A stretch of 48,938 bases of DNA, from NCBI GenBank assembly GCA_012514505.1, contig JAAZAD010000314.1:1-48938 (forward strand). Reading direction: 5' to 3'. Made by a program: the position numbers and the translations under genes. Below, piece by piece: positions 2 to 4,825 of this stretch. Within the stretch, counting starts at the first letter, position 1; each line of letters begins with the position of its first letter. Below the pieces are notes generated by a model that was given only the letters and a program-made list of their open reading frames with translations, was not told the origin of the DNA and made no database searches. The DNA is from Rhodococcus sp. (in: high G+C Gram-positive bacteria). Lineage in GTDB: Bacteria > Actinomycetota > Actinomycetes > Mycobacteriales > Mycobacteriaceae.

Positions 2-523
2 GCAATCGCACTGTTGGCAGTACCTGGGTTAGCCGCATGCAGTGCTGAGCCCGCGCCTGTCTCCGATCGCTCACTCACCGAGATGTGTGAACGCCCAGAA
101 CAGTTTCTAGTGGAGGTGTGGCACTTCGACGAATCTGTCGTTGGCAAACCGCAGCCAACGACAGATGAGAACTACGACGGCACGATCGGCTCTTCTGGCG
201 GGTGCCGATTCGAAGTAGACGGTGCTCGCATCGCATCGGTGTCCGTCTTGAGAGATGTCCCAGGGTTCCTCGAGCCCCCTCCTAGCGCAGACAAGATCCA
301 CATCGGACAGCACACTGTGGAGGCATGGGTTTCGGGTCCTGTCTCCTTGCAGTTCAAAACCGTGAACGGTGGCTGGCGTGGATCGTTCGGCCTGACTGTG
401 CCCAACGATCTCGCCACCCGAGAACCCGTCACCACAGACGAGCAGATGCAAGCTACCGCCACCGAACTTGTGGAGATCCTGGCCGAATTCAAAGGCCCGG
501 ACCATACCCCCACCCCGTACTAA
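2..523 (+). CDS. DUF3558-type lipoprotein, first of three tandem copies (5' end outside window)
   Basis: The reading frame is open to the left window edge. The first codons encode the hydrophobic end of a signal peptide and a lipobox (LAAC), so the mature protein should be a lipid-anchored envelope protein; a TTG at 14 is inside the signal peptide and is not the true start. The body has the pattern also seen in the next two copies: a short acidic/Ser stretch, LTEMCERPEQFL, a paired cysteine (SGGCRF), a central VSVLRDVPGF segment and a conserved C-terminal EFKGPD-TPTPY. This is the layout of DUF3558 lipoproteins of mycolata, whose function is unknown. The stop codon overlaps the next start by one base (TAATG, 521-525), so the pair is probably translationally coupled. 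Confidence 0.8.
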   Translation, partial: AIALLAVPGLAACSAEPAPVSDRSLTEMCERPEQFLVEVWHFDESVVGKPQPTTDENYDGTIGSSGGCRFEVDGARIASVSVLRDVPGFLEPPPSADKIHIGQHTVEAWVSGPVSLQFKTVNGGWRGSFGLTVPNDLATREPVTTDEQMQATATELVEILAEFKGPDHTPTPY

Positions 524-1083
524 TGGCCAGGCTGATGTCGCGATTGCCTGGCGTCGCAGTTGTCACCACTCTGGCCGTTGCGGTTCTAGCCGGATGCGCG
601 ACCGACCCACCGGAACTATCGGGCCACTCCCTCGCCGAATTCTGCGAACGACCCGAACAGTTCCTGACGGACGTCTGGCACTTCCCCAAGCCCGTCACCG
701 GCGAACCCACCTTCACGGACAAGGACCACCCCGGCAAGGTCGGTTACGGGAGTGGATGCGCCTTCGCCGCTAACGGCGATCGGATCGCCACACTAGGGCT
801 GATCAGAGAAGTTCGCGGAATCGGCGAACCACCCAACGATGCAGATTCGATTTACCTCGACGATCAGACCGTGAAGACTTGGGCCGTCGACAGCGCAACA
901 TTGTCGTTCGAAACAGCCATGGGAGGCTGGCAGGCGACAATCACGGTGACGTCGGGAGCCGATCTCGATACCCGCGAGCCCGCTGCCACCGATACCCAGA
1001 TGAACGCCACCGCACACGAGCTCATCGACATTCTCGCCGAGTTCAAAGGCCCTGACCGTACGCCTAGGGCGTGTCTCCTATAG
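523..1083 (+). CDS. DUF3558-type lipoprotein, second copy; 3' end altered by transposon insertion
   Basis: The start ATG at 523 overlaps the previous stop. It is followed by a signal peptide with lipobox VLAGC, then the same body as its neighbours (LAEFCERPEQFL, paired cysteine SGCAF). A longer open frame starts at 325, but that part is the out-of-frame shadow of copy 1. The C-terminus departs from the copies: instead of GPD-TPTPY or GPD-TPTPH it reads GPDRTP followed by RACLL, and those last codons are the left terminal repeat of the IS element beginning at 1067. Joining 1066 to 2702 restores GPDRTPNEY and a TGA that overlaps the ATG of copy 3. The protein is therefore nearly complete but has a transposon-derived tail, and coupling to copy 3 is lost. 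Confidence 0.85.
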   Translation: MARLMSRLPGVAVVTTLAVAVLAGCATDPPELSGHSLAEFCERPEQFLTDVWHFPKPVTGEPTFTDKDHPGKVGYGSGCAFAANGDRIATLGLIREVRGIGEPPNDADSIYLDDQTVKTWAVDSATLSFETAMGGWQATITVTSGADLDTREPAATDTQMNATAHELIDILAEFKGPDRTPRACLL

Positions 1084-1095
1084 CTAATCGGTGAC
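1067..1095 (+). repeat. Outer left terminal inverted repeat of the IS element
   Basis: It begins GGGCGTGTCTCCTATAGCT and continues to GGTGAC. The complement of 2671-2699 begins AGGCGTGTCTCCCATAGCT and also ends GGTGAC; 24 of 29 positions agree. It lies directly after the TA at 1065-1066. Confidence 0.85.
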
Positions 1096-1158
1096 CCACT
1101 GGATGGGGCGAGTAAGTGGGTGTGGGGGAGCCCGGGTCCTGCTTCTATGCGAAGTGCG

Positions 1159-1170
1159 GATAATAGGACA
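1159..1170 (+). promoter_or_regulatory. Likely leaderless promoter (-10) of the passenger kinase
   Basis: GATAAT at 1159-1164 stands six bases before a GTG codon at 1171 that is in frame with the kinase. This spacing fits a transcript starting on the GTG. No convincing -35 is seen. Confidence 0.4.
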
Positions 1171-1725
1171 GTGCTCAACGCTGATGACAGGATCACCTGG
1201 GGGCCTAAGCGCATCGCGGTAGCTGGAGTCTCTGGCTCGGGAAAGACGACCTTGTGCGATGAGCTGGCAGAAGTCCTGCGTTGCGAGCGCGTCGAGTTGG
1301 ACAGTCTCTACCACGGCCCAAACTGGACCCGGCGAGAGACTTTTCTCGAAGACGTAGAGGACTTGATCTCGACACCTTGCTGGGTTGTTGAATTGCAGTA
1401 CCGCGAAGCGCGGCCCCTTATCGTCTCCCGAGCTGACACCATCCTGTGGCTGGACTACCCGACAAGGATCCAGATGGCCCGCCTCATCCGTCGGACGGTC
1501 CGCCGACGCTTGCAGCGCGAGCAACTTTGGAACGGGAACTACGAGCCGCCGCTATGGAAAACCCTCATCGACGAGGACCACATTCTGCGATGGGGCTGGC
1601 ACACGCGGAAGAAGCTCAAGCCAGTGATACCGACGTTGGAGGGCCGGTTTCCCGGGCTACACGTTGTCCATCTGACGCATCCGTCACAGACCTCACAGTG
1701 GGTCCGCGCCCTGGCGAGAAGCTAG
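1171..1725 (+). CDS. P-loop NTPase of the adenylate-kinase-like/topology-modulation type, IS passenger
   Basis: The Walker A motif GVSGSGKTT lies about 15 residues after the GTG at 1171. The rest fits the small AAA/FlaR-like kinase group: VELDSLYHGPNW after the first strand, an IL-WLDYP segment where the family has its base-binding or Walker B strand, and basic RLIRRTVRRRLQRE and HTRKKLKP stretches that could close over a phosphate donor. The substrate cannot be told. GTG 1171 was preferred because of the -10 box just upstream; the frame is open back to 1120 with an ATG at 1147. The stop codon TAG (1723-1725) is made by the junction with the inner IS end, so the natural C-terminus may have been lost. 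The gene is a passenger that moved with the IS. Confidence 0.72.
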   Translation: MLNADDRITWGPKRIAVAGVSGSGKTTLCDELAEVLRCERVELDSLYHGPNWTRRETFLEDVEDLISTPCWVVELQYREARPLIVSRADTILWLDYPTRIQMARLIRRTVRRRLQREQLWNGNYEPPLWKTLIDEDHILRWGWHTRKKLKPVIPTLEGRFPGLHVVHLTHPSQTSQWVRALARS

Positions 1726-2381
1726 GGCGTCTCTCCTAAATGGCGTAGCCAGGTCAGGATGGCGCAGAGGGTGACGGCGGCGCGGTAGGTGATCGCGAGT
1801 TTGTCGTAGCGGGTGGCCAGGGCGCGCCACTGCTTGGCCAGAGCGAAGGAGCGCTCAACGACGTTTCGCCCTCTGTAGAGGTCAACGTCGAGTTTCGGCG
1901 GCCGGCCGCCGCGTCTTCCCCGCCGGGCGCGGGCGTCAATGGTGTCACTCTTCTCTGGGATCACGGCGGCGATATCGCGGCTGCGGAGCTGGCGGCGGAT
2001 CGTGCCGGACGAGTACGCCTTGTCTGCGATCACCGCGTCCGGGCGGGTGCGAGGCCGGCCACGGCCAAGGCGCGGTACATGGATGTCGGCCAGTACTTCA
2101 GCGAGCATCGCACCATCATTGCGCTGCCCGCCGGTGACCACATTCGCCAGCGGCCGGCCGCGGCCGTCGACGGCACTGTGGATTTTGGTCGTCAGCCCTC
2201 CTCGCGAGCGACCAATGCCGTGACCTGCGGGTTCACAGTCCCGGAAGGATCGGTTCTTGTGATTCGACCTGGCCCCCTGTGTCCTGATCAGGGCGGGTGG
2301 TGTTCGTGCCGTGCTGATGAGCACGGCAGATCGTCGCATCGACCGAAACGTTCCAGTCGATCTTTCCGGCCGCATCGGCAT
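1722..2381 (-). CDS. IS5-family transposase, second reading frame (OrfB, DDE domain C-terminal part)
   Basis: The frame holds the second and third parts of a DDE transposase: GHGIGRSRGGLTTKIHSAVD, then the second catalytic Asp in DAVIADKAYSS, then the Glu in VVERSFALAKQWRALATRYDK, ending LTWLRHLGETP. The first catalytic Asp is in the other frame (2233-2652). It is probably not translated from its own start but by frameshifting from OrfA: the homologous overlap contains a run of five G on the minus strand (complement of 2273-2277), and the OrfB frame is offset by +1 there. Both frames are free of stops across the expected domains, so the transposase may be active. The first part of the open frame, before about 2280, is probably not translated. 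Confidence 0.8.
   Translation of the reverse strand: MPMRPERSTGTFRSMRRSAVLISTARTPPALIRTQGARSNHKNRSFRDCEPAGHGIGRSRGGLTTKIHSAVDGRGRPLANVVTGGQRNDGAMLAEVLADIHVPRLGRGRPRTRPDAVIADKAYSSGTIRRQLRSRDIAAVIPEKSDTIDARARRGRRGGRPPKLDVDLYRGRNVVERSFALAKQWRALATRYDKLAITYRAAVTLCAILTWLRHLGETP
1725..1740 (+). repeat. Internal copy of the IS left end
   Basis: GGGCGTCTCTCCTAAA matches the outer left end (GGGCGTGTCTCCTATA) at 14 of 16 positions and is preceded by TA at 1723-1724. It lies directly next to the transposase stop codon (complement of 1722-1724), where an IS end would be expected. It is probably the original left end of the core IS. Confidence 0.7.
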
Positions 2382-2652
2382 CGGCCAGGATCACGTGCAA
2401 GATACGATCCCAGGTCCCGTCCCGTGCGTAGCGGGCGTGGCGCTTCCACACCGTCTGCCACGCCCCGTATTCGTCGCGGGGCAGATCCCGCCACGGGATC
2501 CCTGCTCGGTAGCGGTAGATGATCGCCTCGACGATCTTGCGGTTGTCTCGAAACGGATGCCCCTGCCGCCCTGCATTCGAGGGCAGCAGGGGCTCGATCC
2601 GCTCCCACTGCTCGTCGGTGAACTGGCGGAACCGTGACTTCGTCTGTCCCAT
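2233..2652 (-). CDS. IS5-family transposase, first reading frame (OrfA, DUF4096-like)
   Basis: It begins MGQTKSRFRQFTDEQWERI, typical of the N-terminal DUF4096-like domain of IS5/IS427 transposases, followed by YRYRAGIPWRDLP and the first catalytic Asp in DWNVSVDATICRAHQH. After the switch region the frame continues for about 15 unrelated residues to a stop at 2233. The start is 47 bases inside the right end of the element. Together with the overlapping frame it makes a complete DDE transposase, which depends on a ribosomal frameshift near 2273-2277. Confidence 0.82.
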   Translation of the reverse strand: MGQTKSRFRQFTDEQWERIEPLLPSNAGRQGHPFRDNRKIVEAIIYRYRAGIPWRDLPRDEYGAWQTVWKRHARYARDGTWDRILHVILADADAAGKIDWNVSVDATICRAHQHGTNTTRPDQDTGGQVESQEPILPGL

Positions 2653-2670
2653 ACGGCCACGGTCTCGCGA

Positions 2671-2699
2671 GTCACCGCCGAGCTATGGGAGACACGCCT
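2671..2699 (-). repeat. Right terminal inverted repeat of the IS element
   Basis: The complement begins AGGCGTGTCTCCCATAGCT, matching the outer left end at 24 of 29 positions. The flanking TA is at 2700-2701. Confidence 0.85.
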
Positions 2700-2711
2700 T
2701 AACGAGTACTG

Positions 2712-3254
2712 ATGTCGCGCCTGTCTTGCGCGGCCATCGCCGGCGCTCTGTCGGTACCGGTTCTAGCCGGATGCGGAGCGGACCCGGCACCGTTGTCGGA
2801 TCACTCCCTGACCGAACTATGCCAACAGCCGGAACAGTTGTTGGCTGACGTCTGGAATCTCCCCGAACCCGTTGTCGGCACAGCAAAAGTTCCCAACTCA
2901 GACCACATCGACAGAATTGGAGCCGGAGGTCATTGCACCTTCGACGCCAACGGAGCGAGTGTCGCCTCACTTTCGTTGATCCGTGATACCCCCGGTTTCG
3001 GAGACCCACCCAACGATGCGCATGCGATCTCCGTGGGTGAACATACCGTCAAGACCTGGGCAATCCATAGCATCCGACTGACCTTCGAGGCGGTAATAGG
3101 CGGCTGGGAGGCAAGCATCACCCTGACTCCGGGGGCCGACCTCCATACGGGCAAGCCGGCCGCCACCGATGACCAGATGAAAGCCACCGCAAACAAACTT
3201 GTCGACATACTCGCCGAGTTCAAAGGTCCCGACTTCACCCCGACACCACACTGA
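2712..3254 (+). CDS. DUF3558-type lipoprotein, third copy
   Basis: The ATG at 2712 is followed by a short signal peptide with lipobox VLAGC, then the same architecture as copies 1 and 2: LTELCQQPEQLL, a second cysteine in GGHCTF, the central LSLIRDTPGF and the C-terminus EFKGPDFTPTPH. It is probably a lipid-anchored envelope protein of unknown function. Before the IS insertion its start overlapped the stop of copy 2 (TGATG), exactly as copy 2 overlaps copy 1. It now sits 12 bases beyond the IS right end, and its expression would depend on read-through or on an outward promoter in the IS. Confidence 0.85.
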   Translation: MSRLSCAAIAGALSVPVLAGCGADPAPLSDHSLTELCQQPEQLLADVWNLPEPVVGTAKVPNSDHIDRIGAGGHCTFDANGASVASLSLIRDTPGFGDPPNDAHAISVGEHTVKTWAIHSIRLTFEAVIGGWEASITLTPGADLHTGKPAATDDQMKATANKLVDILAEFKGPDFTPTPH

Positions 3255-3286: not shown

Positions 3287-3304
3287 CGGGTGAGCCCGTT
3301 TTAC
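3287..3304 (+). terminator. Weak candidate terminator after the lipoprotein array
   Basis: A short stem CGGG-TGAG-CCCG is followed by TTTTA. The four-pair stem makes this tentative. Confidence 0.3.
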
Positions 3305-3348: not shown

Positions 3349-4032
3349 ATGGGTGAGATGACCACTGCCGAGGCGAGCGCACTGCTCGGCGTCAGCACAC
3401 GGCAGACAGCCCGGATCGTCGCGTCCGGGGAAATAGCGGTGAAGCGCCGCGCTGGGAGTGCGCTGCTGCTCGACTCGGAGTCGGTTCAGAGGGCAGCCCA
3501 AATCTCTCGGGCACCGGGCCGCGTATGGTCCGAACCAGTGGCCTGGGCCGCATTCACCTTGCTTTCAGGGGGAGACGCAAGTTGGTTGGCGGCGTCGCAG
3601 CGCACGCGACTGCGCCACAAATTACGGAACACGACCGCCGATGAGGTGGCGGCCCTGGGACGGCATCGCGCGCGGGTCCATCGGTTTCGCGTCCACACCT
3701 CGGCAATTGCAAAGGTCGAAGAGCAACTGATAGTGACCGGCGATTCCGCGCTCAGCAATCCGACACTGGCGTCGCGTTTCGGTTTGACCGCGGGCCGCGA
3801 CCGAGTCGACGGCTATACGACAGATGCGGAGTTGAAGTGGCTGGTCGACACCTTCGGATTGGTTGCGGACCCTTGCGGCAACGCGACAGTCCGGGTCGTG
3901 CGCCACACCGACGCCTTCGGGAATGGACACACGCCGCTCGCCGCGATAGCCACGGACGTGATGGATTCCTTATCCACCCGGGAGCGCAGTGCGGGCCGAC
4001 GAGTCCTCCAGGAATTGTTGGATGCCCGATAG
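3349..4032 (+). CDS. HTH protein, probable antitoxin of an AbiE-like pair
   Basis: The N-terminal 45 residues (TTAEASALLGVSTRQTARIVASGEIAVKRRAG) look like an excisionase/MerR-like winged helix-turn-helix. The remainder, about 180 residues, has no motif I recognise but contains DGYTTDAELKWLVDTFGLVAD and an acidic/basic C-terminal helix. It is followed by a nucleotidyltransferase-like gene, the arrangement of AbiEi/AbiEii-type toxin-antitoxin systems, where the HTH partner represses the operon and neutralises the toxin. The start may be ATG 3349 or ATG 3358, since the -10-like TATATAT is very close. Assignment as antitoxin rests mainly on context. Confidence 0.6.
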   Translation: MGEMTTAEASALLGVSTRQTARIVASGEIAVKRRAGSALLLDSESVQRAAQISRAPGRVWSEPVAWAAFTLLSGGDASWLAASQRTRLRHKLRNTTADEVAALGRHRARVHRFRVHTSAIAKVEEQLIVTGDSALSNPTLASRFGLTAGRDRVDGYTTDAELKWLVDTFGLVADPCGNATVRVVRHTDAFGNGHTPLAAIATDVMDSLSTRERSAGRRVLQELLDAR

Positions 4033-4041
4033 GCGGTCGAC

Positions 4042-4825
4042 ATGGCGGATCTCCGCTCCGGCGGGAGGATGGGGTCCACCATGGCCGCAAGTAGCCGAAC
4101 TCACGCGAGCGGTTCCACCTGACCACTAGACCCTCGTCGTTGGGCTGATGGTGCAGCTACATGCGCTGTACGCCCGCCTACCGGCCATCCGTCCGACCGT
4201 CGATGTGGACATGATTCTTCACATCGAGACGGGTGCAACCACTTTCAAGAGCGTTCGTCATGCACTCGAAGACATCGGCTACGAGTTGCAATTACCGCTG
4301 GGGAAACATGCACCTGTTCACCGCTTCACCAGACAGGGTGAACAGGTCGACGTCATGGTCGCGGACAACCTTGCGCCTGCCTATCGTCCAACCGTGTTGG
4401 GACGGCCAGTCTTCGCCGTGCCGGCTGGTACGTCGGCCCTTCGAAAAACGGTGAACTGTTCGCTCGAGCGGAACGATCCGGCGGAGCCCCTGACCCTCAG
4501 CATCCCAGATGCACTCGGCGCACTTGTGCTCAAAGGAGCCGCCTACAGAGAGGATCCACGCGACCGCAGTCGACACCTCGACGACGCGGCGATTCTTGCC
4601 TGCGCGCTGACCGATCCACACGAAGATGTCCTGCGACTCAGGGGGCATGATCGAGGACGAATCCTCCTCCTGGCCGAGGCACTGACAGACACGAATCACC
4701 GATCTTGGCTACAGATGCCCGACGAGATGGCACAGCACGGACGCGACACCCTCCGACTACTGACTCGAAACCCGCAGACGACTACCCGGCCGCGCCAACT
4801 CGGCCGACGTGCCACAGACAACTGA
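4042..4825 (+). pseudogene. AbiEii-like nucleotidyltransferase, N-terminus broken by a frameshift and a stop
   Basis: The long open part starts at ATG 4148 and contains MVQLHALYARLPAIRPTVDVDMIL, which matches the start of AbiEii/MenA-like nucleotidyltransferase domains (glycine loop then DxD). The family needs a glycine-rich strand just before this. That strand (TLVVG-L) is encoded in frame upstream, but a TAG at 4127-4129 precedes it. Further upstream the same reading, with one base shift near 4087, gives AELTRAVPPDH; the neighbouring frame from ATG 4042 gives MADLRSGGRMGSTMAA. The pieces line up as one gene damaged twice. A shortened protein from 4148 would lack the strand before the loop and is probably inactive. 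If so, the antitoxin gene upstream is an orphan. Confidence 0.55.

Follow-up and report, generated by a model that had tools for sequence, protein, structure and literature searches.

The Rhodococcus sp. contig JAAZAD010000314.1 (assembly GCA_012514505.1), whose 48,938 nucleotides were analyzed as one stretch (the window), carries a 1,633-bp transposon at positions 1067–2699, inserted into a lipoprotein gene with TA at both borders (1065–1066 and 2700–2701). From left to right the unit comprises an outer end of insertion sequence (IS) type, a plus-strand P-loop kinase gene, an IS end in the interior, the minus-strand transposase frames B and A, and a right end. We conclude that it is very probably a one-passenger unit transposon belonging to the IS5 family (IS427 kind), mobilized through an orphan IS end together with the far end of a complete IS. 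This draws on the unit borders, on TA or CTAG flanks at two unrelated targets, on a third insertion, of an IS-less cassette, for which a relative has the empty site, and on the occurrence of the IS alone. The features of the window are as follows.

523–1066, plus strand: 5′ portion of lipoprotein gene copy 2 (of three), which the unit interrupts, from the joined flanks
1065–1066: left TA target duplication; joining the flanks here gives back an intact end of the lipoprotein gene
1067–1097, plus strand: outer left end, an orphan of inverted repeat left (IRL) type with perfect core GGGCGTGTCTCC and without transposase behind it, 87–91% match to the transposase-start ends of related IS copies
1159–1164, plus strand: GATAAT, possible −10 box 6 bases before the GTG, in the stretch GGATAATAGGACAGTG that is identical in the Dietzia aurantiaca copy (L007)
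1171–1725, plus strand: P-loop kinase gene, the passenger, 184 residues from GTG 1171 (191 if from ATG 1150), from translation, homologues and model
1722–2381, minus strand: transposase frame B, DDE domain (PF01609, 1.1e-21; NF033580, 143.7 bits)
1723–1724: TA of the IS insertion at the kinase stop codon; the D. aurantiaca copy has GCTAGCTGAAG here, without IS
1725–1752, minus strand: inner IS end, inverted repeat right (IRR) type, GGGCGTCTCTCC, one core mismatch, from the sequence
1725–2699, minus strand: complete plain IS5-family element (IS427 kind), with plain kinase-free copies at 86–88% in plasmids H2–H5
2233–2652, minus strand: transposase frame A, DUF4096 domain (PF13340, 3.8e-28; NF033580, 123.1 bits), overlapping frame B at the conserved ACACAGGGGGC
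2669–2699, minus strand: outer right end, IRL type, last base T versus C in the Dietzia plasmid copy, from sequence comparison
2700–2701: right TA target duplication, from the sequence
2702–2712, plus strand: 3′ remainder of lipoprotein gene copy 2, with a TGA that overlaps the ATG of copy 3, from the joined flanks

Comparing the borders with each other (1065–1095 against 2671–2701) revealed complementarity at 26 of 31 positions, a value reached by none of 200,000 random 31-nt pairs from window positions 3300–48900, the best of which gave 22. The insertion target is the second of three lipoprotein genes and, as it stands, ends in GPDRTPRACLL. Joining position 1066 to 2702 in a script yielded the end AEFKGPDRTPNEY, that is, GPDRTPNEY followed by TGATG onto the next gene, and the intact paralogues end in GPDHTPTPY (copy 1) and GPDFTPTPH (copy 3). 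A protein search with copy 3 gave three outside homologues, with the ends GPDFTPTPH, GPDRTPTEY and GPDFTPTQY, the second being that of an uninterrupted metagenomic relative, so that the reconstructed gene end fits independent sequences. Both the 1,633-bp unit with its TA duplication and the restored GPDRTPNEY end with the TGATG overlap, as proposed in a preliminary description of this DNA, were thereby confirmed. At the DNA level the lipoprotein array had no match in the 27 further genomes of the genus (at most ten candidates scored per genome), and therefore no sister empty site could be read for this locus. One of these genomes, G009, carries an IS at coordinates identical to those in R. opacus B4 (NC_012520.1), which suggests that the genus is Rhodococcus-like. 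The array of three paralogues spans window 14–3254.

The same description had presented the unit as an IS5-type element that carried the kinase gene. Joint movement stands, but the kinase lies outside the IS proper, between a complete IS at 1725–2699 and the orphan end. Plain kinase-free copies on plasmids of Dietzia kunjamensis (two), R. qingshengii and Dietzia DQ12-45-1b, annotated, where at all, only as 'IS5 family transposase', match the unit from position 657/658 to 1637 only, at 86–88% identity. Because these copies begin exactly at the kinase end, the IS proper is delimited to 1725–2699, with the CTAG of the kinase stop codon as its insertion site; the TAG itself is made up of the target TA and the first IS base. 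The unit thus has three IS ends, of which the internal one at 1725 directly follows the kinase, while the orphan outer-left end is an extra one and not the missing half of the IS. Positions 1–33 of the unit match the IRL, i.e. the transposase-start end, of related IS copies over 31–33 bp, and both outer ends are of this type.

Both transposase frames exceed the 110-bit cut-off of NF033580 (IS5_3), identifying an IS5-type DDE transposase, and ACACAGGGGGC lies in the frame overlap of all four copies printed, where it marks a putative frameshift site. Together with the TA duplication, these features bear out the earlier assignment as IS5/IS427-like. Among 9 distinct plain copies, TA adjoins the IRR in all and the IRL in 8 (L167 deviates). 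Two plain copies in direct orientation surround a multicopper-oxidase-like gene in Dietzia genome G169 (L193, G169:C1, 847–5746), where the same transposase-like sequence lies outside both, in opposite orientations. An apparent composite in L192 (G031:C1, 702–4290) was discarded, as its frames suggest a plain IS interrupted by IS21-like genes (istA/istB).

A further copy of the whole unit, flanked by CTAG on both sides, was found at the end of an lsr2-type gene on the Dietzia sp. oral taxon 368 plasmid NZ_CP027239.1 (L002), so that TA stands at both borders in either copy. The two units differ by 5 substitutions, all in the IS part, and one 74-column gap in the transposase, indicating that the transposase frame of the plasmid copy is damaged; the 658 bp from the outer end through the kinase are identical. 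The gap sits at a short GACCA repeat (L002 5072–5083). Because a near-identical unit occupies an unrelated target, kinase and IS have moved together, in agreement with the proposed movement as one transposon, and the refuting case named there, that no other genome has the kinase together with IS ends, is excluded by this find. NZ_CP027239.1 is the only one of 260 plasmid records with any match that holds the whole unit, and the window unit is the only copy in its own genome. Searches of plasmids with the outer end (5 and 7 matching records) gave no units beyond NZ_CP027239.1, the joined flanks of this plasmid copy were absent from the 25 plasmid records listed of 234, and viral contigs contained no match to the kinase peptide patterns or the outer-end pattern.

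At a third site, in Dietzia aurantiaca J3 (L007), the outer end and the kinase are present at 91.5% over unit positions 2–661, ending at the kinase stop CTAG, with host sequence directly after GCTAG and without the IS. The Dietzia genome G268 reads CGGCTAGCCG across this insertion site, with flanks 94–95% identical to those of L007, and the L007 cassette is therefore an insertion at CTAG. Since the other 22 Dietzia genomes searched had in no case a kinase match beside flank matches, the absence looks ancestral. The metagenomic kinase P0004 (87%) continues with YGVSP after the conserved ALARS, as would be expected if the stop codon had changed and the frame ran on into an IS end.

The kinase unit is not alone. 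In a search of 401 genomes of the family the outer-end pattern matched 20 times, in 16 genomes, perfectly besides the window only in G218, a genome of the same GTDB family. Its locus L138 reads TA, IS, a 464-residue gene, outer end and TA, corresponding to a 2,486-bp unit of similar design at 74–2559.

72–2561 of L138 (G218:C3): DprE1 unit with outer IRL, DprE1-type gene (1028–2422, minus strand), degenerate inner IRL, transposase, IRR, and TA on both sides

The passenger scores 760 bits with the DprE1 equivalog (cut-off 500); it is 63% identical to the resident DprE1 of G218 and 100% identical to P0121 of R. pyridinivorans. The inner IS end beside this gene is degenerate, with 2 mismatches in the 12-base core, and both outer ends are perfect. 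In contrast to the kinase unit, gene and transposase are co-oriented and the inner end is of IRL type. The Dietzia genome G230 retains a decayed start of the DprE1 unit (L194, G230:C499, 3477–3759; 75%) with transposase-start remnants behind the outer end: over 123 bp, this end and the bases behind it match the left end of the IS, including where the transposase starts, at 74%, with tnpA residues 5–25 at 62%. At the position equivalent to Cys387 of M. tuberculosis DprE1, taken from alignment to the M. smegmatis enzyme, the passenger has Ser, the residents of G218 and G112 have Cys, and the window's own genome has Ala. The exchange C387S gives M. tuberculosis benzothiazinone resistance (PMC6153800). 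We rejected the Ser as a mark of selected drug resistance, as it occurs in 112 of the 120 nearest homologues listed (8 were unmatched by the motif); being the rule in this DprE1 branch, it allows no inference on selection.

Together, these observations are consistent with the following course. A P-loop kinase gene closely preceded by an orphan IS left end would have received a plain IS in the CTAG at its stop codon. The transposase of this IS would then pair this orphan with the far, left-type IS end, bypassing the inner end, so that all DNA between the paired ends would move as one 1.63-kb piece and TA would be duplicated. The orphan would be the relic of a second IS copy, making the unit a reduced composite transposon. 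At some stage the inner end would have been weakened, and the events may have followed this order; the core mismatches at the inner end of both passenger units would keep the gene aboard. Among the 2,442 relatives of the kinase, the closest with a name come from Dietzia (93%, 82% and 71%), and its best matches in other genomes of the window's genus reach at most 47% identity, pointing to a Dietzia-like source from which the unit may have entered a Rhodococcus-like genome, perhaps by plasmid.

Several points weigh against this account. The movement of the unit is read from sequence. Only two near-identical copies join kinase and IS in readable DNA, and in 401 genomes of the family and 397 of the order (two candidates scored per genome) the complete unit occurred only in the window's own. 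G268, which provides the empty site of L007, is only 64% complete. The decay of the inner end is only suggestive, since this end has one core mismatch, as do the right outer end of the window unit and 3 of 18 plain ends (2 of 9 IRRs and 1 of 9 IRLs); given this variation of plain ends, we rejected inner-end decay as proof.

For the orphan end, a more specific origin compatible with the proposed mechanism has a somewhat better than even chance: two inverted IS copies once flanked the kinase, and the left one shrank to its outer 31–33 bp. Both outer ends are of IRL type, as two inverted copies would give, the G230 remnant keeps its 123 bp of the IS left end behind the outer end, and in G169 two IS copies do surround a gene, though in direct orientation. 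On the other hand, the kinase unit has no transposase sequence behind its orphan end, and the base following the core is T in the outer ends of the passenger units versus C in 9 of 9 plain IRLs, so that the orphan end may stem from another IS subtype. The simplest origin is a gene flanked by two IS copies, one of which eroded until only its end was left.

For L007 we considered that the orphan end and the kinase moved alone, using the CTAG at the kinase end as second end. Either history would leave the same sequence; the right border of the cassette, however, shows no inverted repeat, and loss of the IS between 4-bp repeats would need no new mechanism, which makes independent movement rather unlikely. 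Most simply, the L007 copy lost its IS between two CTAG repeats.

Instead of being an IS relic, the outer end could have been a chance surrogate upstream of the kinase that a single IS used and selection later refined. Such single-IS mobilization of adjacent DNA has been reported for IS1380-family elements (PMC3281130). The close match of the outer end to IRL over its whole 31–33 bp, at 87–91%, and the failure of all 200,000 random pairs to equal the similarity of the two unit ends make this improbable. Separate arrival, with the kinase recombining into the lipoprotein gene and the IS settling beside it later, would suit an IS that occurs alone and kinase relatives that occur without IS, but is contradicted by the exact rejoining of the flanks at TA across the whole unit, with the gene end restored, and by the same kinase–IS pair at another target, and we give it almost no weight.

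The kinase and DprE1 units have outer ends that agree at 29 of 30 positions, compared with 30 of 33 for the best plain left end. As they are closer to each other than to plain left ends, the two units may share a passenger-bearing ancestor. Tentatively, an IS427-type clade in Dietzia and Rhodococcus might repeatedly make one-gene transposons, each consisting of an orphan left end, a gene with its own start and a complete IS, in which the inner end decays and the outer ends are kept, and both units might descend from such an ancestor that exchanged its genes; we regard this extension as possible but doubtful.

Analysis of the passenger itself indicated a maintained protein. Between the window and L007 copies, the kinase gene differs at 38 of 552 bases, 21 of them third positions, with a dN/dS ratio of 0.25 (NG86) or 0.31 (YN00). 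The low ratio and the excess of third-position changes thus argue that the protein has been kept. Translation likely begins at GTG 1171, six bases after GATAAT, and this start would be of the leaderless type. The nearest NCBIfam models are of the FlaR-type 'DNA topology modulation protein', although the score with NF005994 (58.3 bits) stays far below its equivalog cut-off of 215. An AlphaFold2 model was obtained with a mean pLDDT (predicted local distance difference test) of 90.7. A substrate could not be assigned from the fold, as the matches were generic (gluconokinase, CINAP and shikimate kinase, with template modeling scores of about 0.4–0.6), and a role as defence gene was discarded with no PADLOC match. 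For three kinase relatives at 61–65% (P0017, P0023 and P0024) the longest contig has exactly 1,626 bases each, a possible sign of small elements that are circular or collapsed.

Passenger-bearing ISs are known in several families. Members of IS families with passenger genes have been termed transporter IS (tIS; PMC7986276). Like these, the kinase unit has one transposase, one passenger, IS-type ends and movement as a unit with a short target duplication, the last being read from one unit at two targets. The kinase gene lies between mobile ends and is unrelated to transposition: among 22 kinase loci in genome contigs, this transposase was present in none within the available flanking bases, and an outer end adjoined the kinase in one (L007). 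Unlike in tIS, the IS itself is still complete, the kinase lies beyond it, flanked by the inner end and the orphan end, and there are three IS ends. A composite transposon similarly brackets a gene by IS ends, but with two full IS copies, whereas here a single transposase is present, the side left of the kinase has none, and of the left IS only an end remains. TMo are adjacent segments mobilized by a single IS, the IS1380-family element ISPme1 (PMC3281130). The kinase unit resembles them in that a single IS moves neighbouring DNA; it differs in that its second end is a recognizable 31-bp IS end and its borders are the same in two complete copies. Mobile insertion cassettes are flanked by inverted repeats and free of transposase; the window unit has a transposase, and the L007 cassette lacks the right repeat.

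Duplications of 2 bp and frames that overlap are the rule for most elements of the IS427 group (PMC3281130, PMC6514802). ISPssp5, with the inverted repeats GGGTGTGTCATCAATTA and GGGCGTGTCATCAATTA, the direct repeat TA and two overlapping genes, is reported to carry no passenger (PMC6514802). It shares the kind of ends, the TA duplication and the overlapping frames with the present element, whose plain form has about 975 bp compared with 837 bp and which, as the kinase unit, bears a passenger. The passenger-bearing ISs reported from Arthrobacter plasmids are likewise actinobacterial, but belong to the IS481, ISL3 and ISNCY families and carry 2 to 12 passenger genes (PMC6305408). Our literature search, over titles and abstract openings among the matches listed, found no IS5/IS427 unit with such passengers. 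The kinase unit is an IS427-type case that works like a tIS or like a composite transposon reduced to one IS and one end.

Beside the lipoprotein array, window 3349–4825 holds a gene with a weak HTH_17 match below the Pfam cut-off, followed at 4148–4825 by a gene without Pfam match; these could form a two-gene module.

Added to the original observation are thus a third IS end, two further insertion sites, an IS-less derivative and a DprE1 unit. They show a step from IS to transposon with its likely intermediates: the plain IS, the IS pair around a gene, the orphan end with gene and IS, and the IS-less leftover. Because the passenger lies outside the annotated IS, such units are easily missed. 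The kinase unit appears to have moved between Dietzia and Rhodococcus as one piece, and ordinary chromosomal genes, such as those for the kinase and DprE1, are made mobile by this type of IS.

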